The translations under genes and the position numbers were made by a program. Source: Nitrospirae bacterium MYbinv3 (lineage in GTDB: Bacteria > Nitrospirota > Thermodesulfovibrionia > Thermodesulfovibrionales > Magnetobacteriaceae). Taken from it: DNA of 35,248 nt. The notes beneath the pieces are model-generated. The model was given only the letters and a program-made list of their open reading frames with translations. It searched no databases and had not been told where the DNA came from. Shown here piece by piece: positions 13,080 to 33,891 of the stretch. The stretch covers positions 1 through 35,248 of the forward strand of contig PEAB01000018.1 of NCBI GenBank assembly GCA_002753395.1. The letters are read 5' to 3'. The first letter of the stretch is position 1, and each line of letters starts with the position of its first letter.

Positions 13080-13544
13080 TTAAAACACTGTGAGATCTCC
13101 AGCGCCCTCGATGAGTTTATCTATATCGAGGAGTATAATCAGGCGATCGGCCAGCTTTGCAATGCCGCTTATAAATTCAGTGGATATATCCGTTGCCATA
13201 GGTGGAGTTGGCTCTACTATATTTGATGGAACCCTTAGAACCTCGGAGACGGAATCTACGACCATACCCATTGTAATGCCTTTGATATCTACAATCATTA
13301 TCCTTGAGTCTTCATCGTTTTCCTTTTCCATAATACCGAATTTCTTTCTAAGGTTTACTACTGGGATTACCTTACCGCGCAGGTTTATCACACCTTCGAC
13401 ATAGGGCGGCGAGTTAGGCACCATGGTGATAACTGTCATCCTGTTAATCTCCTGTACCTTAAGTATATCCACAGCATATTCCTCGCTGCCTAATGTAAAT
13501 GTAACTAATTGTAAGACGTCATCTGTAACAGTAAAAGTATCCAT
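13080..13544 (-). CDS. cheW: CheW chemotaxis coupling protein
   Basis: A 154-residue single-domain CheW: LQLVTFTLGSEEYAVDILKV then QEINRM, VEGVINLRGKVIPVVNLRKK, MGMVVDSVSEVLRVP and ISGIAKLADRLIILLDIDKL. CheW links chemoreceptors to CheA at the membrane. AAGGGAG precedes the ATG. It is the last gene of the chemotaxis run, after cheB, and one of two CheW-domain genes here; the other is fused to CheZ at 16774-18207. No receptor gene lies in the window. Confidence 0.96.
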   Translation of the reverse strand: MDTFTVTDDVLQLVTFTLGSEEYAVDILKVQEINRMTVITMVPNSPPYVEGVINLRGKVIPVVNLRKKFGIMEKENDEDSRIMIVDIKGITMGMVVDSVSEVLRVPSNIVEPTPPMATDISTEFISGIAKLADRLIILLDIDKLIEGAGDLTVF

Positions 13545-13655: not shown

Positions 13656-14714
13656 TTATATAGAGTTAACAATCTCTCCTGCCACCTCGCTTAGAGATAC
13701 AATCTTGTCTGCAATACCGGCGTCTACCACGGCCTTCGGCATTCCATAGACAACGCAGCTTTCCTCATCCTGAGCGATTGTCCTCCCACCACCTTCTTTA
13801 ATCGCCTTCATACCCTTGAGTCCATCATTGCCCATACCGGTAAGGATAACCCCCAGACAACTGCCCGGATACAACTGGGCAATTGATAACATCATAACGT
13901 CCACGGATGGTTTATATATATACTCGTTGTTTTGTGAAATGCTTATGTACTTTTCTATTCCCTTTTTTACAATGCTCATATGGCCTAGCCCAGGGGCAAT
14001 ATAGACAACACCGCTTTGGAGTTTCTCACCGTCCTTGGCCTCTTTAACCTGAAGATGACTGAGTTGGTTTAACCGCTCGGCAAATGGACCGGTGAAGTTT
14101 TGTGGCATGTGTTGAGAGATCACGACAGGGACGGTTATGTTTTTTGGTAATATTGGCACTATCGACTGTAAGGCCTTGGGGCCTCCTGTTGAGGTACCTA
14201 TGGCTATTATGTTCATGCGTTTTGAGGAGTTAAATTGTACGTCCCTTGGCATAGTTATGATAGGTGTCGACGTCCTGGTCTTCTTTTTTGGCGCTTTAAA
14301 TCCTTTTATACCAATCTGTTTTATTTTCTCTATGAGCATAAGTTTGATGTTTACTATATTAACGGACAACTCCGAGAGATTTTTAGGAATAAAGTCTACG
14401 GCCCCCATATCCAGAGCATCGAGGGTGACCTTGGCCCCTTCAGTGGTTAACGAACTGACCATTATGACTGGCAAGGGGAATTTTTCCATTAATATCTTTA
14501 GAGTCTCAAGACCGTTCATTTTAGGCATCTCAACATCCAACGTCATAATGTCTGGCTTTAGAGCCTGAACCTTCTCTATCGCCTCCACTCCGTCGCGGGC
14601 AACTCCCACAACCTGTATCTCAAGATCGGACGCTATCATACTCTTAAGAGCGTTTCTCATAAACGCTGAGTCATCCACAATCAAAACCTTAATATACCTG
14701 CTCTTACTCTCCAT
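13656..14714 (-). CDS. cheB: CheB receptor methylesterase
   Basis: A 352-residue two-domain protein. The receiver domain (residues 8-125) has the acidic pair in VDDSAFMR and phospho-acceptor Asp60 in MTLDVEMPKMNG. The methylesterase domain (about 165-350) has Ser175 in GTSTGGPKAL, His202 in SQHMPQNFTGPFAERL and Asp297 in GMGNDG as catalytic triad. It removes methyl groups added by CheR to receptors, giving adaptation. It follows cheA by 13 bases without a clear ribosome binding site, so coupling is likely. Confidence 0.97.
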   Translation of the reverse strand: MESKSRYIKVLIVDDSAFMRNALKSMIASDLEIQVVGVARDGVEAIEKVQALKPDIMTLDVEMPKMNGLETLKILMEKFPLPVIMVSSLTTEGAKVTLDALDMGAVDFIPKNLSELSVNIVNIKLMLIEKIKQIGIKGFKAPKKKTRTSTPIITMPRDVQFNSSKRMNIIAIGTSTGGPKALQSIVPILPKNITVPVVISQHMPQNFTGPFAERLNQLSHLQVKEAKDGEKLQSGVVYIAPGLGHMSIVKKGIEKYISISQNNEYIYKPSVDVMMLSIAQLYPGSCLGVILTGMGNDGLKGMKAIKEGGGRTIAQDEESCVVYGMPKAVVDAGIADKIVSLSEVAGEIVNSI

Positions 14715-14727
14715 ATAATAATAACCG

Positions 14728-16674
14728 TTATTTGTGTACGTGTAAGGCTGCGCTAAACAGTACTGTTGGATCGATAATCAAAACAACCTTACCGTCTCCA
14801 GTTATTGTGGCTCCTGCTATACCCTCTGAGCTGTTGGCAAAGCCCTCGATCGATTTTATAACTACCTCTTCCTGACCATAGAGTCTGTCCACCATCATAC
14901 CAAACTTCTTTTCATTAATTACGATGACTACCATATATATCTTATCAGCTCCATTGGACGATGGTGAATCTATGAAGAACTTAGTAGCAAGCCTGTATAC
15001 TGGTACGACCTCGTTTCTTAGAATGACTGTCTCATGACCTCTTATGGTCTTTATCTCTGACTTGTCAAGACGCACTGTCTCAACAACTGATGACAGGGGT
15101 ACTGCAAATACCTCATCACCTACGCCAACCATTAGAGCCTGAATGATTGCAAGTGTAAGGGGTAAGCGAAGCAAAAATCTAGCACCCTGACCAACCTCTG
15201 TCTCGATGGTGATTGATCCGTTGAGCTTAGATATATTGGTTTTTACAACGTCCATTCCTACGCCGCGTCCTGAGACGTCTGTTACCAGTTTAGCAGTTGA
15301 AAAACCTGGTAAAAATATATAGTCCAGTATCTCCTTATTAGACAGCTTTTCTAACTCATCACGAGTAGCAAGCTCCTTCTCTAATATCTTTTCTTTCAAC
15401 TTATCAACGTCGATTCCTTTACCGTCATCTTCTATGGACAAGACAATATTATTGCCCTCTTGATAGGCTGACAGTATGACCGTTCCATGTCTAGGTTTAC
15501 CTGCTGCCTCTCTAACATCAGGCAGTTCGATGCCATGATCGGCTGCGTTTCTGATCAAATGCACCAGAGGGTCGCCAACCTCCTCGATGATAGATTTATC
15601 AAGCTCTGTCTCCTCACCAACGAGACGCAGTTCGACCTCTTTTTTCATCGTCCTGGCCAGATCTCTAACCATCCTTGGAAACTTGTTAAAGACCTTTTTG
15701 ACTGGCTGCATCCTTGTTTTCATAACCGCAAGCTGTAGATCAGTCGTTATGAGGTTGATAAAGGCTGTCAGCTCCGCCAGATGCGATACGTCTGCCGAGT
15801 CGGTGTACTTGATCTCAAGATTAGCCACAATCTTCATTAGTCTGTTACGGGCAAGCACCAGCTCGCCAACTAGGTTTAACACGTTATCAAGTCTCTCTAC
15901 GTCCACCCTGATCGTCTGTTCTACCTGCTGCCCCTTTTCCTTGTCAGCCGGTCCGCTCTGTTTGGCCAGCGCCTTTTTGACGTCTTCTTTAGAGGTCTTG
16001 TCCGTGGCTGTTAGTATCTCTCCAACCTTTGGCACATCCCCAGTATCTACAGACTCCTTTATCATTGACTGTATGGTAAGTGCCTCTTCTACATCATCCT
16101 CGGATACCTTGCCTTCCTCTATAAGAAGCTCGCCTACGTGTTTTGGTGGCCGCTGTTCCGGATCTGTATCTTCCTCGCTCTGACCAGGCTCTTCACCAAG
16201 GCGTTCCGTATCCATATAGTCTTTGGCCGCTGCCTCAGCTTTTGCAGACGTCTTTTGTTCATGGCTGTCTTTATCAGTCGAAACACCAACGCCATCGTAA
16301 ACGTCTTGCAGTTTTTTCAAGAGGTCGCTTAAATCCTCTTCAACACCGTCTTTTTGCTTTATATGTTCGAGGAGTATCTTTACCATGTCCACTGATTCTA
16401 ATATCACGTCCATTATCTGTGGGGCCAGCAAGATAATGCCGTCTTTTATCTTTTTCAGAACAGATTCAGTGATATGAGTAAGCTGCACCATTTGATTGAA
16501 TCCGAGAAACCCTGAAGCTCCTTTTATTGTATGTATAGAACGAAATATATCGTTAACGAGATCCTGGTTTTCCCTATCAGCTTCCAATTCAACAAACTTG
16601 TGGTTAAGTTCTTCAATAAGCTCTGTCGTTTCTATAAGAAAGTCGTTTATTATCTCATCCATCTCATCAGCCAT
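14728..16674 (-). CDS. cheA: CheA chemotaxis histidine kinase with repeat linker
   Basis: A 648-residue kinase. The HPt domain has phospho-acceptor His48 (SIHTIKGASGFLGF). Where P2 normally sits there are two short related modules, residues about 179-203 (HVGELLIEEGKVSEDDVEEA) and 216-239 (KVGEILTATDKTSKEDVKKA), resembling MshEN/GspE-N-type units. P3 dimerisation begins RVDVERLDNVLNLVGELVLA. P4 has the N box HLIRNAADHGIE (372-383), DDGKGID and GRGVGMDVV. P5 is CheW-like to the end. AAAGGAGG precedes the ATG. It phosphorylates the CheY proteins and CheB. The lack of a recognisable P2 suggests different CheY docking. Confidence 0.97.
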   Translation of the reverse strand: MADEMDEIINDFLIETTELIEELNHKFVELEADRENQDLVNDIFRSIHTIKGASGFLGFNQMVQLTHITESVLKKIKDGIILLAPQIMDVILESVDMVKILLEHIKQKDGVEEDLSDLLKKLQDVYDGVGVSTDKDSHEQKTSAKAEAAAKDYMDTERLGEEPGQSEEDTDPEQRPPKHVGELLIEEGKVSEDDVEEALTIQSMIKESVDTGDVPKVGEILTATDKTSKEDVKKALAKQSGPADKEKGQQVEQTIRVDVERLDNVLNLVGELVLARNRLMKIVANLEIKYTDSADVSHLAELTAFINLITTDLQLAVMKTRMQPVKKVFNKFPRMVRDLARTMKKEVELRLVGEETELDKSIIEEVGDPLVHLIRNAADHGIELPDVREAAGKPRHGTVILSAYQEGNNIVLSIEDDGKGIDVDKLKEKILEKELATRDELEKLSNKEILDYIFLPGFSTAKLVTDVSGRGVGMDVVKTNISKLNGSITIETEVGQGARFLLRLPLTLAIIQALMVGVGDEVFAVPLSSVVETVRLDKSEIKTIRGHETVILRNEVVPVYRLATKFFIDSPSSNGADKIYMVVIVINEKKFGMMVDRLYGQEEVVIKSIEGFANSSEGIAGATITGDGKVVLIIDPTVLFSAALHVHK

Positions 16675-16773: not shown

Positions 16774-18207
16774 TTAAAATCCAAACTCTGCAAGTAGTGC
16801 ATCGACGTCCCCTTGCTGGGACATGATTCCCTCACCAGCCTTTATCTGAGGACCAGCAAGTTCCTCCGGCTTCTTCACCTCAGCCTTTTTACCCTCAGGT
16901 GTGCCAAAATACACAACCAGCCGCAATAGCTGCTCTTCAAGCTCTCTTACAAGCCTGATGACCTTCTTGAGTATCTGTCCCGTGAGATCCTGAAACTCCT
17001 GTGCCAGCATGATCTCAATAAAATCATTACTGATCTCGGACAGCTCTGTCTTGACAAAACTGAGAGAGACCTTTTCCTCCGAGTGGGTGCAGTCGAGTTC
17101 GTTGAGTTTTTCCTCGACGAAATCCAGTTTGGTCATCAACTCCTCCAGCTTTGACTGGTTTCTCTCGGCTATACCGATTGTCTTGCCTGCCGCCTCATCG
17201 GTCTTTGTAATCACCCATTCTAATTTGTCCGTAACCTCGGGCATATCATCCTGAGCTATGTCAGCAAGACGGGGGTCTATCAACTGTTTAAATATATTAA
17301 AGGAGTCGTGGAGTTTGCGGGTCATCTTACCAACCTCTGAGAACAAGTCTCTCTCACCGTAGTTTGAAAGCGACATGATGACCTTCTCAGCCTTTTCGAT
17401 ATCCCCATTGGCAAAGGCGTCTATAAGCCCTTTGACCTCATCCATTATTTTGTGTACAAGCCCTTGCTCGAATCCCTTTTCTCCTACTGACTTTTCAAAG
17501 GCCTCTTGTACTTCCTGTACAAAGTCGTCACCACTCTTGGGTGCGGTTTTTTGCGCTGAGGTGTTGTCTACTGCCTCTGAGACCTGCTGTTGACCTGTGA
17601 CATCGTCGTCATGTTCTGCAGTCTCGTTTTGTTCGACAGCGTCGAGCCGTTCACTTATCTTACCGTTGCCCTTTTCAATCGGTCCCTTTTCTGGCATATC
17701 TTCTAACGGCATCATAGCAGGAGATTTAACTGTATAGTCAATCTCTGTTTCCCTGTTAGATCCGGCGCTCAACATCTCCATGTCGTCCTTGTTTAATATC
17801 TTTGACAGGTCGATGATGATCACCATCCTGTTTTCACCAAGGTTTGCGACACCTCTGAGACACTCATCGTTATTCCTATTACATACGAGTTCTATATCTC
17901 TTGTAATGGTATTGTCATCAATCTCCATGACGCCGGTGATGGTGTCCACTTTAACGCCAAAAGTCACTCTGCCTATGTTGGTTACTATGACCTTGCCGCC
18001 TAACTCTGAACAGTCGCTGTCAAGACCGAGTTTTCTTTTTAAGTCAATGACCGATATGGTTTTTCCTCTAAGGTTAATAATGCCAAGCACATGCTGTGGG
18101 GTATGAGGAAGCTTTGTTGTCTGTGCAGGTTTCATAATCTCCTGAACCACAAGGATAGATATAACGTATTCTTCCTTTCCCAGGGTAAACCCTATGTACT
18201 GGCTCAT
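16774..18207 (-). CDS. cheZ: CheW-CheZ fusion: coupling domain plus CheY-P phosphatase
   Basis: A 477-residue fusion. Residues 1-145 are CheW (IGFTLGKEEYVISILVVQEI, VLGIINLRGKTISVIDLKRK, LRGVANLGENRMVIIIDLSK). Residues 146-225 are an acidic, Q/E/D-rich linker. Residues about 228-477 are CheZ: a long helix with MTRKLHDSFN (295-304), then IMLAQEFQDLTGQILKKV with catalytic Asp407 and Gln411 (Asp143 and Gln147 in E. coli CheZ), and a tail GDVDALLAEFGF equivalent to the E. coli CheY-binding tail VDDLLDSLGF. So both domains appear functional. AGGAGA precedes the ATG. It sits between cheY and cheA and may place the phosphatase at the receptor-kinase array. Confidence 0.93.
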   Translation of the reverse strand: MSQYIGFTLGKEEYVISILVVQEIMKPAQTTKLPHTPQHVLGIINLRGKTISVIDLKRKLGLDSDCSELGGKVIVTNIGRVTFGVKVDTITGVMEIDDNTITRDIELVCNRNNDECLRGVANLGENRMVIIIDLSKILNKDDMEMLSAGSNRETEIDYTVKSPAMMPLEDMPEKGPIEKGNGKISERLDAVEQNETAEHDDDVTGQQQVSEAVDNTSAQKTAPKSGDDFVQEVQEAFEKSVGEKGFEQGLVHKIMDEVKGLIDAFANGDIEKAEKVIMSLSNYGERDLFSEVGKMTRKLHDSFNIFKQLIDPRLADIAQDDMPEVTDKLEWVITKTDEAAGKTIGIAERNQSKLEELMTKLDFVEEKLNELDCTHSEEKVSLSFVKTELSEISNDFIEIMLAQEFQDLTGQILKKVIRLVRELEEQLLRLVVYFGTPEGKKAEVKKPEELAGPQIKAGEGIMSQQGDVDALLAEFGF

Positions 18208-18263
18208 CTAATTCTCCTGAATCTCAAAATCATTACTCCTGATTACTAAAATTGCACTAGTTT

Positions 18264-18656
18264 TTACTTCTTTTGTAGTTTTTCAAATATCTTATCGATC
18301 TTCTCTTTTAGTACCTCAGCAGTGAAGGGTTTAATAACGTAGTTGTTTACGCCAGCCTTTACAGCCTCAACGACCTGTTCTTTTTCCGCCTCGGCGGTAA
18401 CCATAAGCACAGGCATAGACTTTAGCTTTGCATCGCCTCTTACCTTCTTTAGTAGCTCTAGGCCTGAGACATTAGGCATGTTCCAATCGGTGACAAGAAA
18501 GTCAAAGCCGCCAGTTTTGAGTTTGTTAAAGGCCTGTTCACCGTCCTCGGCCTCTTCAATCTTTTCAAAGCCTAGTTGCTTTAGAATGTTTTTCACTATC
18601 CTTCTCATAGTGGAAAAATCGTCAACCACCAGTATTTTCATGTTCTTATCGTACAT
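18264..18656 (-). CDS. cheY: CheY chemotaxis response regulator
   Basis: A 130-residue single receiver domain very close in pattern to classical Che[21 protein letters not shown], phospho-acceptor Asp57 in [20 protein letters not shown], the conserved Thr in [16 protein letters not shown] and Lys in [16 protein letters not shown]. Phosphorylated CheY binds FliM and FliN to change flagellar rotation. It lies next to its phosphatase (CheW-CheZ) and kinase. GGAGGTC precedes the ATG. Of the two receivers here this is the likely motor-binding one. Confidence 0.95.
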
Positions 18657-18679: not shown

Positions 18680-19042
18680 TTAATGCTTTAATATATCTTT
18701 TATATTTCTAGTAACTGCCTCTGCAGTTACGGGCTTAACCATATAACCATTTGCGCCGGCCTCAAATGCCAGTTCCCTATCAATATCATCGTTTTCTGTG
18801 GTGATCAATATTATCGGTATACGTTTAAAAGAGGGGTCGGCCCTGAGTGTCCTTGTCAGTTCAAGACCATCCATGTAAGGCATGTTTAAGTCTGTAAGTA
18901 TGAGGGCAACCTCGTTGTAGGCCAATTTCTCTATTGCATCTAACCCATTTTCTGCATATATTGGTTCATACCCACTGCTTGTTAGATAAAGCCCCAAGAT
19001 CTTCCTTGTTGTCTTATCATCGTCGACTACCATTATTCTCAT
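18680..19042 (-). CDS. second CheY-like single-domain response regulator
   Basis: A 120-residue receiver domain with all catalytic residues: [20 protein letters not shown], Asp51 in [20 protein letters not shown], Thr in ILITTENDD and Lys in [12 protein letters not shown]. It lacks the DFSTMRRIV stretch of the neighbouring classical CheY, so it may be a phosphate sink or have another target. It lies between cheR and cheY in the same run. A GAGGGAT site precedes the ATG. No output domain is present. Confidence 0.9.
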
Positions 19043-19066: not shown

Positions 19067-19888
19067 CTAAACCTTTTGATATACTACCGTCTTGTCAATT
19101 ACATTAGGCCTAAAGACACGTGTTACGTCATGTAGACTCTCGGCCATACCTATAAAGAGGTATCCGCCAGCTCGTAGAGATTCGTACAGGTTGCTTATGA
19201 CCTTTATTTTGGCTTTCTTATCGAAGTAAATAAGCACGTTTCTGCATAATATTACATCCATATCACGAAACCCCCTCATTTTTTTATCATCGAGGAGGTT
19301 TAATTGCACAAACTTAACCTTTGTCCTGACCTCGTTATTGAGCTGATAATTTGATGCGGTGCTTTGTTTAAAATATTTTTTCATGTACGCCTCTGGTATA
19401 TTTCTGATGGCATACTGAGCATATTCAGCCTTAAGTGCCCTTTCAATCACCACATCGCTTAGATCCGAGGCGTGTACCTCAAACCTTATAGAACTTGTCT
19501 TAGGGTTTTCCAAAAGCATCATTGCTATTGTATAGGGTTCTTCACCAGTTGAACATGCTGCAGACCATATCTTCATGGTCTGAGCTCTTTTGTCTTCCTT
19601 CATTTTAGGTAACACGTGTTCTACTAACACTTCCAGCTGTTTGGTTTCCCTAAAAAAAAACGTTTCATTAGTTGTTATCTTATCATACAGGATTTTTAGC
19701 TCATTTTTGTCTGCATTGTATCTCAAGAGATAGAAATAATCCTCGTAGCTGCCGATCTTTTTTTCCTCAAGCCGTTTAGATAGCCTGTTTTCAATAAAAT
19801 ATTTTTTTGTATCAGGGATATATATCCCTGTGGTGTCATAAATAAAATCCCTCAAGTTCTTAAAGGTCTCATCCTTAAGTACCATCAT
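19067..19888 (-). CDS. cheR: CheR receptor methyltransferase
   Basis: A 273-residue protein. The N-terminal helical domain (FKNLRDFIYDTTGIYIPDTK, FIENRLSKRL) is followed by the SAM-dependent methyltransferase: TTNETFFFRE, MKIWSAACSTGEEPYTIAMM (SAM-binding loop), EVHASDLSDVVIERA, DVILCRNVLIYFD and GGYLFIGMAESL. It methylates glutamates of chemoreceptors, opposing CheB. Its ATG overlaps the stop of the HEAT-repeat gene by four bases, so the two are coupled. Confidence 0.97.
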   Translation of the reverse strand: MMVLKDETFKNLRDFIYDTTGIYIPDTKKYFIENRLSKRLEEKKIGSYEDYFYLLRYNADKNELKILYDKITTNETFFFRETKQLEVLVEHVLPKMKEDKRAQTMKIWSAACSTGEEPYTIAMMLLENPKTSSIRFEVHASDLSDVVIERALKAEYAQYAIRNIPEAYMKKYFKQSTASNYQLNNEVRTKVKFVQLNLLDDKKMRGFRDMDVILCRNVLIYFDKKAKIKVISNLYESLRAGGYLFIGMAESLHDVTRVFRPNVIDKTVVYQKV

Positions 19889-21741
19889 AAGGATTGTATG
19901 GCTTCCTCTGCTTTCAGTCTAACGGAGTCATCTGGATGATCTCTCAAAGGCAGCAGGGCATTATATATCTCAACTCCACCTATTTTGGCAAGGGCATCAA
20001 TCGCTCCAAGCGTTACCAACGCCTCTGTATCGTTTAATGCGGCTATCAATTCCCTAAGGTACTCTTCTCCTTTAGAGTTTGCAACTGCCTTTACGGCATA
20101 GAACCTTACCCACATGTCCATATCATGCATAGCGCTCAACAGAGCCTCTGAGAAAGTACCTGCCTGGTTAAATCCCATGACAGCCACCTTTCGCAGCTGT
20201 GGATTAGGGTCCTTCAGAACCTCTTCAAGCCTCTTCTCAACACCCTTGGATTTAAACGATGAAAGCCGCTGCACTGCTGTAACCTTAACATTCTCGTTTT
20301 TGTCACGAGTAAGCTTAAGTATGAGCTGAACATCATTGCAGTACTTAGCTATATACTTCTTTGTTACAACAGAATAACTACCAATGTCCTTTAAGAAACT
20401 CTCACTATCTAGGTATAGCAGAGCCTGCACGGTCTCTTCTATGACGTCATCGCACTTTTCATCTTTAAGCATCCTTACGATAGACCCATAGGCCCTAACG
20501 TTTCCTATCTTATGCAGTGCATAGACTACCTGCAGCTTCATATGACAGTCGTCATCGTTTAAAGCCTCAATCAATGCGTCAACACAGCGTTCATCTGCGA
20601 TGCTCACCAGTGCCTTGGCCGCACCCCTCCTTTTATCTCTGAATGAGCCTCTCAATAGACTTATAAGCTCCTCAATGGCTTCTGTACACTTGAGTTTACC
20701 CAACATCTCCACAAGCAGGGCCTTAGACCTGAATCGAAGTTCGCTCCTCTGCCTGAGCATACCTACCAAACTCTCGCAGTCTGAAATCTCTGTGATAGAG
20801 TCGATTATGATACGATAACGCTCCTCATCTTCGGGATAGGAGGTATCCATAGAGCCTGCCAACTCTATGAGCATTTCAATGGCCCTCTTCTCCTTTAAAA
20901 TCCTCAACCCCTCTATAGCTGCCGTTTTTTCCTCCCAATCGGCGTTGTTTAACATCTTGATCAGCTCATCGGAGATATAAACCATATCCGGTTCGATACC
21001 GAGGCTGACCAGGCTCTTGACTGCAACACCTCTAGTAAAGTCATCGGAGTTCTTGATGCAATATATCAATGCCTCTTTGGATTCCTTCGACGGTATCTTA
21101 CCAAGCGTCTCAAGGGCTGCATATCTTATCACACTTGAACCGCCTGTACACAATCTAAATATCGCTCCGACGGCCTCTTTCCCTTTCATCTTACCGAGGG
21201 CCTCAAGGGCTGCAAAGGTCACCCACTCCTCATCATGCAGTGCAGTCTCAAGGTGTTCCACAATACGCTCGCTGCTCTCGTTTAACAAACCAAGAGAACG
21301 GCAAGCAGCGGCTCGAACGTTTGGATTTGGATCCTTAAGCAGCGGAAATATCTTATCAATTACCACACCGGTCTTTATATCACCCATGAGGTCAAGTGCA
21401 AACTTCCTTATATCATCATCCTTATCATTTAGCAGGTCGTAAAGTAATGGGACGGTCACATTACCAAGCTCTTTGAGGATCACCAAGGCAGCATTTCTCT
21501 GCGCCGGTCCCTTTCTCAACACGGGTATAGTCATATAGGCCACCATCTCACCACCAATCGCTATTAGCGACTGCATGGCAGCATCCTGCACTGCCGCATT
21601 TGAATCAAAGAGTGCTTTGATCAATGGGTAAATTGCCCGTTCATCACCCTCAGAGAGCATCGTGGCCGCAGCACGCCGGTCAGAAACGTCAGCCCCACTG
21701 AGCTTCTTGATTAGTGAATAGAGTTTTTTTGTCTGCAACAT
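19885..21741 (-). CDS. HEAT-repeat protein of the chemotaxis operon
   Basis: A 618-residue soluble protein made almost wholly of HEAT-like helical pairs of about 30 residues: AIYPLIKALFDSNAAVQDAA, VTVPLLYDLLNDKDDDIRKF, FPLLKDPNPNVRAAACRSLG, ALIEALNDDDCHMKLQVVYA, LREVL-type units to the end. No catalytic motif, signal peptide or membrane segment is seen, so it is probably a protein-binding scaffold. It shares a four-base overlap with cheR and lies between fliA and cheR, suggesting a role in receptor adaptation or array organisation. That role is inference; related HEAT genes beside cheR are, to my recollection, found in Nitrospirota and some deltaproteobacterial groups. Confidence 0.85.
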   Translation of the reverse strand: MLQTKKLYSLIKKLSGADVSDRRAAATMLSEGDERAIYPLIKALFDSNAAVQDAAMQSLIAIGGEMVAYMTIPVLRKGPAQRNAALVILKELGNVTVPLLYDLLNDKDDDIRKFALDLMGDIKTGVVIDKIFPLLKDPNPNVRAAACRSLGLLNESSERIVEHLETALHDEEWVTFAALEALGKMKGKEAVGAIFRLCTGGSSVIRYAALETLGKIPSKESKEALIYCIKNSDDFTRGVAVKSLVSLGIEPDMVYISDELIKMLNNADWEEKTAAIEGLRILKEKRAIEMLIELAGSMDTSYPEDEERYRIIIDSITEISDCESLVGMLRQRSELRFRSKALLVEMLGKLKCTEAIEELISLLRGSFRDKRRGAAKALVSIADERCVDALIEALNDDDCHMKLQVVYALHKIGNVRAYGSIVRMLKDEKCDDVIEETVQALLYLDSESFLKDIGSYSVVTKKYIAKYCNDVQLILKLTRDKNENVKVTAVQRLSSFKSKGVEKRLEEVLKDPNPQLRKVAVMGFNQAGTFSEALLSAMHDMDMWVRFYAVKAVANSKGEEYLRELIAALNDTEALVTLGAIDALAKIGGVEIYNALLPLRDHPDDSVRLKAEEAIQSL

Positions 21742-32406: not shown

Positions 32407-33891
32407 ATGAAGATGCGACGTGTCAGAGTCGGTGACATACAAGTAGGGCAGCCTTTGGCAGCATCCATACATGACGAAACAGGTCACTTGATGCTGCGTA
32501 GGGGATATATAGTAACCGAAGAGGATGTACTGAAAACATTGCGAGGGCTTGTTGCAACCGAAGAACAAGAGAAAGAGGAAAAACTGGCCCAGATCACAGA
32601 GCATGACGTCGATATTATTATTGAGGAGGACTCACCTTTTGAGGAGATCGATATAGTCTATCAGAGGCTTGAGAACTTGTTCAGGCAATTAGGCACAGAA
32701 AGAGACATCCGGACGAAACTCCTTTTTTTATCGAACATAATAGTGCATGTATGCTCTTTAGATGAAGACCTGGCGTTGGGCACTTTACTTCTGAGACAGG
32801 ATGCCAGGTACACAATCAAACATCCGCTACATACGGCTATCGTGTGTGAGGTTATAGCTAAGAAGCTCGGTTGGTCTGTAACGGATCGCCTATCCTTGCT
32901 TTCTGCTGCCATTACTATGAATATTGCTATGATAGAGTTACAGGAGATGTTACATTACCAAAAAGACCCTCTAACGGATAAGCAGAGGAGAAACATTCAA
33001 AGCCACCCTGTTCAAGGTATGGAGTTGTTGAAGAAAAACAAGATTAATGACCAGTTATGGTTGAAAGCCGTGCTTCAGCACCATGAGACTTTAGATGGCA
33101 GCGGTTATCCATACAATCTTAAAGGAGAAGAGGTGTCTCAAGGGGCACGAATCGTTTACTTGGCAGACCTGTACTGTGCACGTGTAACCGGCCGTGACTA
33201 TCGCCCCCCACTGTCGCCAACCATGGCTATGAAGGAGATCTTCCTCAATAAAGGTCAGCGGATTGATATGGATTTAGCAATGGTCTTTATAAAAAACCTG
33301 GGGATGTACCCACCAGGCTCGTTTGTAAGACTCAAGAATAATGAGATTGCTGTGGTGACACAGCGTGGAGAGAAAACAAATGCCCCTATCGTCCATACAG
33401 TGATAAAAGGTAACGGCTTTCCACCGTTGACGCCACTGCGCCGTGATACCAGTTTTGACGAGTTCGCTGTAAGCGCAATACTTTCTCATCATAAGCCTCC
33501 AATTGAGGTAAACAGCCATCAACTATGGGGCTACGGTGTCTTTAAGAAACCTAAGATAACAAGAAGGAAACGTGACAGACTGCAAACAAACATACCTGCA
33601 AAACTCCTCGACATGGTGACCATCAAGACCTCTGATGCTGCTATTATCAACATAAGCGAACACGGTTGTCTGGTGAGAACTTCAGGAGTAGACAGCAATC
33701 TCTATGTACTGGACAAGAACTACTTTATCTCCTTCAGACTGCTCGAAAAAACTTTTGAGAATATTGAATGCGTAGTAAAAAACTCTCAGATTAAGGATGG
33801 AAACCATCTGTTAGGCATAGAGTTTATTGATATAAGCGAAGAACTTAAAAACATGGTATCCTTTTATATAGACACCATGCGTTTAGATTAA
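32407..33891 (+). CDS. degenerate HD-GYP domain protein with C-terminal PilZ
   Basis: A 494-residue cytoplasmic protein. Residues 1-50 (RVRVGDIQVGQPLAASIHDE) resemble the N-terminal domain common before HD-GYP. The HD-GYP domain spans about 100-310: HHETLDGSGYP (225-235) and ADLYCARVTGRDYRP are kept, but the metal-binding HD dyad is replaced by MN (171-172, in SAAITMNIAMIEL). So phosphodiesterase activity is doubtful. Residues about 386-490 are PilZ, with RRKRDR and NISEHG (415-420), the c-di-GMP binding motifs. It may act as a c-di-GMP effector for motility. It is on the opposite strand to the flagellar genes and flanked by inverted MITE copies. Confidence 0.85.
   Translation: MKMRRVRVGDIQVGQPLAASIHDETGHLMLRRGYIVTEEDVLKTLRGLVATEEQEKEEKLAQITEHDVDIIIEEDSPFEEIDIVYQRLENLFRQLGTERDIRTKLLFLSNIIVHVCSLDEDLALGTLLLRQDARYTIKHPLHTAIVCEVIAKKLGWSVTDRLSLLSAAITMNIAMIELQEMLHYQKDPLTDKQRRNIQSHPVQGMELLKKNKINDQLWLKAVLQHHETLDGSGYPYNLKGEEVSQGARIVYLADLYCARVTGRDYRPPLSPTMAMKEIFLNKGQRIDMDLAMVFIKNLGMYPPGSFVRLKNNEIAVVTQRGEKTNAPIVHTVIKGNGFPPLTPLRRDTSFDEFAVSAILSHHKPPIEVNSHQLWGYGVFKKPKITRRKRDRLQTNIPAKLLDMVTIKTSDAAIINISEHGCLVRTSGVDSNLYVLDKNYFISFRLLEKTFENIECVVKNSQIKDGNHLLGIEFIDISEELKNMVSFYIDTMRLD

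Follow-up and report, generated by a model that had tools for sequence, protein, structure and literature searches.

A CheW-CheZ fusion of the Thermodesulfovibrionales as a candidate array adaptor carrying a CheY-P phosphatase

In Escherichia coli, CheZ is a dimer that is recruited to the chemosensory array through the aromatic tip of its helical hairpin and CheA-short, a D(D/E)WF tip serving as the localisation motif (PMC7750401). Alpha- and deltaproteobacterial CheZ proteins have been reported without the CheA-short-binding site, and in Helicobacter CheZ is placed by ChePep (PMC7750401). CheV has been proposed to act as an additional adaptor and a phosphate sink, and an Arg62-Glu38 salt bridge is described as universally conserved in CheW and CheV (PMC4742279). 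The position of CheZ matters because it shapes the CheY-P gradient. Here we describe cheWZ, a gene in which CheW and CheZ are joined in a single reading frame. From its sequence, we consider it probable that the product serves as a further array adaptor and brings a CheY-P phosphatase to the receptor-kinase array.

The gene lies on the minus strand of the window, which is the whole stretch of 35,248 nucleotides analysed. Its frame is complete, running from an ATG at 18207 to 16774, while the plus-strand reading contains many stops. The earlier note had described one 477-residue frame holding CheW, a linker and CheZ, and this was borne out: the gene is intact and both Pfam domains are present. 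Production of free CheZ from an internal start was considered and rejected, as no start with a ribosome site was detected at a shared position in the fused genes scanned. The features of the gene are as follows.

18214 to 18218, minus strand: ribosome-binding site AGGAG before the ATG of cheWZ (sequence reading)
16774 to 18207, minus strand: cheWZ, CheW-CheZ fusion gene, 477 amino acids plus stop (sequence and Pfam, PDB matches)
17788 to 18201, minus strand: CheW domain, residues 3-140 (Pfam PF01584, E 8.3e-35; beta-barrel in the model)
18139 to 18141, minus strand: Glu23, equivalent to E. coli CheW Glu38, salt-bridge partner (invariant in 36/36 fused CheW domains)
18067 to 18069, minus strand: Arg47, equivalent to E. 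coli CheW Arg62 (invariant in 36/36 fused CheW domains)
17530 to 17775, minus strand: acidic linker, residues 145-226, predicted disordered (model, composition, alignment)
17350 to 17532, minus strand: predicted helices before the CheZ hairpin, residues 226-286 (model)
16777 to 17349, minus strand: CheZ domain, residues 287-477 (Pfam PF04344, E 4.2e-41)
16906 to 17274, minus strand: predicted long CheZ helical hairpin, helices 312-370 and 376-434, tip without Trp (model)
16987 to 16989, minus strand: catalytic Asp407 in QDLTGQ (invariant in alignment A1)
16975 to 16977, minus strand: catalytic Gln411 in QDLTGQ (invariant in alignment A1)
16777 to 16812, minus strand: C-terminal CheY-binding helix GDVDALLAEFGF, residues 466-477 (conserved in A1; helix 467-474 in the model)

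The CheW half matched PF01584 with 119.8 bits (cut-off, 23.5) over profile positions 1-136 of 138 and matched E. coli CheW in the PDB by sequence (2ho9, 4e-20). NCBIfam agreed with both the CheW and the CheZ assignments, with scores below the NCBIfam equivalog cut-offs. The modelled double beta-barrel resembled the CheW subunits of E. coli core signalling units (TM-score normalised to the target, 0.83-0.88), giving a strong Foldseek match to 6s1k/8c5v (E about 1e-13). In addition to the salt-bridge pair, Pro34, Gly42, Gly84, Val93 and Gly119 were invariant among the 36 fused CheW domains, and per-site constraint was correlated between fused and ordinary CheW (Spearman 0.58). The fused domains have drifted at E. 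coli positions 21, 75, 107 and 120, all of which are fixed in ordinary CheW, and carry a signature, Gly/Ala at position 21 and Gly at 107, unseen in ordinary CheW. As four otherwise fixed sites differ, one contact of the fused domain has probably changed. The domain is proposed to bind CheA P5 and receptors.

The CheZ half matched PF04344 with 141.5 bits (cut-off, 30.7) over profile positions 2-203 of 203, disposing of the concern, raised in the earlier note for residues 228-477, that there might be no significant CheZ match. Its PDB sequence match was to E. coli CheZ (1kmi, 5e-18), in an alignment that takes in QDLTGQ and continues to the final residue, GDVDALLAEFGF pairing with the end of 1kmi. 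Both catalytic residues and the CheY-binding tail had been recognised in the earlier note and are present as stated. D407, Q411 and Q406, together with Q465, D469, L472 and G476 of the tail, were invariant in 32 fusions (alignment A1). Pfam detected no receiver domain in CheWZ. AlphaFold was run on a 19-sequence alignment (A2) and returned a model of modest overall confidence (mean pLDDT, 65) in which a confident CheW barrel was followed by an unstructured gap (residues 151-227, pLDDT <50). Predicted helices then spanned residues 226-309, ahead of a hairpin whose two helices were each 59 residues long; residues 435-466 formed a further disordered stretch, and a last helix lay at 467-474. This modelled layout is that of E. 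coli CheZ placed behind a CheW domain. Foldseek supported the CheZ half weakly (1kmi, E 1.6); hence, the CheZ assignment rests on sequence. The linker is acidic, as the earlier note says, with 17 D/E versus 8 K/R over residues 145-226, and the alignment showed it to be longer in the host genus than in the rest of the order.

The surrounding genes form a chemotaxis operon, with the order HEAT-repeat gene, cheR, cheY2, cheY, cheWZ, cheA, cheB, cheW, within a flagellar region containing fliA, fleN, flhF, flhA and flhB (names read from translations).

19067 to 19888, minus strand: cheR (domain search)
18680 to 19042, minus strand: cheY2, second single-domain receiver (domain search)
18264 to 18656, minus strand: cheY of the E. 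coli type (DWNMP), likely substrate, lying 56 bases upstream of the fusion (PDB matches)
14728 to 16674, minus strand: cheA, with Hpt, dimerisation, ATPase and CheW/P5 domains (Pfam)
13656 to 14714, minus strand: cheB (domain search)
13080 to 13544, minus strand: canonical cheW, encoded separately in this operon (Pfam, E 1e-40)

The best PDB matches of cheY were enteric-type CheYs (E about 1e-53). An operon of HEAT-cheR-cheY2-cheY-cheA/cheWZ-cheB-cheW is kept in named Nitrospirota, where cheA usually precedes cheWZ. The HEAT-repeat protein (19885-21741, minus strand) lies before cheR, and related Nitrospirota have it at the same point of their che operons. Pfam found no P2 domain in the window CheA and no domain of any kind at about residues 180-245, the stretch that separates Hpt from the dimerisation domain and is the expected site of P2; two repeats resembling MshEN/GspE N-terminal repeats, VGELLIEEGKVSEDDVEEALTIQ and VGEILTATDKTSKEDVKKALAKQ, were read there. 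A further protein near the flagellar cluster (32407-33891, plus strand) combines HD_5 with a C-terminal PilZ domain and is likely a cyclic-di-GMP protein. A separate cheW is retained in the che operon of the host and of many relatives, indicating that CheWZ supplements CheW and is no substitute for it. Apart from CheWZ, the genome encodes no CheZ. In the same genome, one CheC hit just exceeded the cut-off and two CheX-type hits fell short of it, all three lying outside the window, and CheX/CheC-type proteins are present in the host family; as such proteins also occur, CheWZ is not surely the sole CheY-P phosphatase.

The nearest named relative was Candidatus Magnetomicrobium cryptolimnococcus, followed by Nitrospirae/Thermodesulfovibrionales genomes, which places the window in the Nitrospirota. 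The same fusion occurs in three other genomes of the host genus. Within the host family, CheZ exceeded the cut-off in 13/19 genomes, each with a frame of 419-481 amino acids, and several members had no CheZ. Among 101 sampled genomes of the host order, the Thermodesulfovibrionales, 54 had a CheZ over the cut-off, and in 52 of these it was a CheW-led fusion; the two exceptions were G081, with a 62-amino-acid fragment, and G050, whose gene (L218) lies at a contig end and lacks CheW. Both Pfam domains were detected in 32/32 aligned fusions. A frame-joining artefact, named in the earlier note as a refuting outcome, has a negligible probability: the same junction is found in independent genomes of many genera, including the single-contig genomes G015, G038 and G096, and this conservation led us to reject it. 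A plasmid search gave no match spanning most of the CheWZ protein.

Fusions were also detected in ten genomes of families f14 and f15 of the same class and, elsewhere in the phylum, in three genomes of family f22 and one of f25, while the large family f29 has ordinary CheZ with frames of about 200-275 amino acids. CheZ is common in the host phylum (Nitrospirota; 225/396 sampled genomes), contrary to the suggestion that it is less commonly described outside Proteobacteria. In the Pseudomonadota sample, 119/349 genomes had CheZ over the cut-off among the matches listed, and CheW was present in 0/13 of the long CheZ frames checked (341-440 amino acids), again among the matches listed. Another phylum, that of genome G405, contained the main-type fusion in three genomes (L091/L160, L185 and L186; the first, whose frame is cut at a contig end, was counted by its CheZ type) and a different CheW-CheZ protein in two (L178, L254). 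Long CheZ frames of this phylum mostly carry N-terminal parts other than CheW. Those with a different N-terminal part (L162-L168, L170-L173, L175, L176) formed one clade where placed in the tree, and in L175 this part gave a weak Hpt match (E 1e-4), so that an Hpt-CheZ fusion is possible there. In other CheZ relatives (L244-L252; 397-683 amino acids), the N-terminus bears a strand-like motif (VIGFELGVGEFRI or similar), and the CheZ match is interrupted by a large insert. No account of a CheW-CheZ protein was found in open-access full text, the scope of our literature search; domain databases may hold an entry for the architecture with no accompanying publication.

The fused CheW domains of the order formed one clade (support, 95/87 with all rows and 100/99 in a reduced set), and the CheZ tree grouped the same families. 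Such trees are what one old fusion with mainly vertical inheritance would be expected to give. The fused domain is no recent copy of the neighbouring cheW or of the CheV-like genes of the host. A single common origin for every CheW-CheZ fusion was also considered. The protein L178 (787-2103) combines an ordinary-type CheW with a CheZ of the ACNFQDLTGQ type (motif read in L178); its CheW shares up to 61% identity with ordinary CheW and 34-43% with fused CheW, groups with ordinary CheW (100/99) and is joined to a CheZ from a different CheZ branch (98/98). These placements disfavour the single origin, and a second, separate fusion in L178 and L254 is likely, short of proof because an AU test did not reject one clade of all fusions (p 0.13). 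Two stand-alone CheZ proteins, L169 and L174, nest beside a fused CheZ (100/97); hence, the CheZ part was perhaps also freed by loss of CheW or passed on by transfer.

A Trp at the hairpin tip was present in 0/41 main-type fusions versus 65/65 gammaproteobacterial CheZ proteins (tip window), and the hairpin was shorter in the fusions (median distance between the TEeAA motif and the catalytic Asp, 70 versus 81 residues). On the kinase side, no Shine-Dalgarno sequence was detected before the internal starts at residues 62-97 of the window CheA. The textbook CheA-short route thus seems, from sequence, to be absent on both sides, making the CheW domain its obvious candidate replacement. The earlier note had assigned the job of CheA-short to this domain, a proposal favoured by the missing tip, the missing internal ribosome site of CheA and the preserved CheW core. 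The tip Trp was likewise present in 0/17 stand-alone or long CheZ proteins of the phylum of G405; as its loss extends to stand-alone non-gamma CheZ and is not specific to the fusion, we say only that the CheW domain may replace CheA-short recruitment.

As an array adaptor, CheWZ would use its CheW domain to dock into the flagellar chemosensory array, in the layer of CheA P5, CheW and receptors, and the long, flexible, acidic linker would hold a CheZ hairpin dimer there. The CheZ tail would capture CheY-P, and Asp407 and Gln411 would remove the phosphate, the covalent tether thereby allowing the signal to be ended at the array with no need for CheA-short. Phosphatase activity, dimerisation, array docking and an effect on the CheY-P gradient are properties that we infer for this protein. 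The drifted sites of the fused CheW, the occurrence of CheC/CheX-like proteins, the lack of CheZ in several family members and the missing tip of stand-alone non-gamma CheZ count against this reading.

Other roles can be envisaged for the same architecture. The CheW domain could sense receptor or kinase state and gate CheZ, making CheWZ mainly a regulated phosphatase and the domain more than a means of placing it. The well-supported separate clade of fused CheW, with signature residues unlike those of ordinary CheW, is consistent with this, as is the retention of a separate cheW in the operon; the linker, being long, variable and predicted to be disordered, disfavours tight coupling of the two halves, and we regard such gating as unlikely. 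Disorder could expose the linker to cutting, and the fusion might then be merely a joined gene, with a passive CheW part or a protein cut or re-initiated to give free cytoplasmic CheZ. This is distinctly unlikely given that the CheW half has kept the constraint pattern of ordinary CheW over an order-wide history.

As E. coli CheZ is a dimer, the fusion should bear two CheW heads, and with the CheW core kept these could cross-link core units, phosphatase activity being secondary to a structural role. The invariance of the catalytic residues and the CheY-binding tail is what would be expected if phosphatase activity were under selection and makes a mainly structural adaptor improbable. A broader proposal, which we advance tentatively and consider rather unlikely, is that CheW-tethered CheZ has been invented repeatedly outside enterics as a two-headed array adaptor in which the state of the array gates the phosphatase; if true, kinase activity and CheY-P removal would be set in one complex.

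In a whole Nitrospirota order, the chemotaxis off switch is one protein with an array-building CheW adaptor, suggesting that signal termination can be built into the array lattice. The fusion offers a direct genetic answer, one that can be tested throughout the order, to how CheZ reaches the array, and a natural single-chain part with which to probe whether array-bound phosphatase improves chemotaxis.

CheWZ resembles E. coli CheZ (PF04344, 1kmi) in its predicted hairpin, the Asp and Gln of QDLTGQ, the C-terminal CheY-binding helix and the E. coli-type CheY partner but differs in being fused to CheW, in its shorter hairpin without the aromatic CheA-short tip and in the lack of any sign of a CheA-short start. 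Helicobacter CheZ-ChePep and Azorhizobium CheZ are also placed independently of CheA-short (PMC7750401); where those systems use a separate partner or other means, CheWZ would use a covalent CheW domain. The CheW half shares with ordinary CheW (PF01584) the fold, the Arg62-Glu38 pair and Val36, Gly57, Gly99, Asp103 and Val108, whereas it forms its own clade, has signature changes and works beside a separate cheW. FliY, a CheC-type phosphatase fused to FliN and placed at the motor, likewise tethers a CheY-P phosphatase covalently to a machine part, although at the motor and from another phosphatase family. CheV, a CheW-receiver fusion, likewise joins an adaptor of the CheW type to a partner domain that terminates the signal; the partner is a receiver in CheV and a phosphatase in CheWZ, and the CheW domain of CheWZ stands apart in the tree from those of the 311-322-amino-acid CheV-like proteins of the host. 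The best reading of CheWZ is as a mirror of CheV, a phosphatase-bearing array adaptor.
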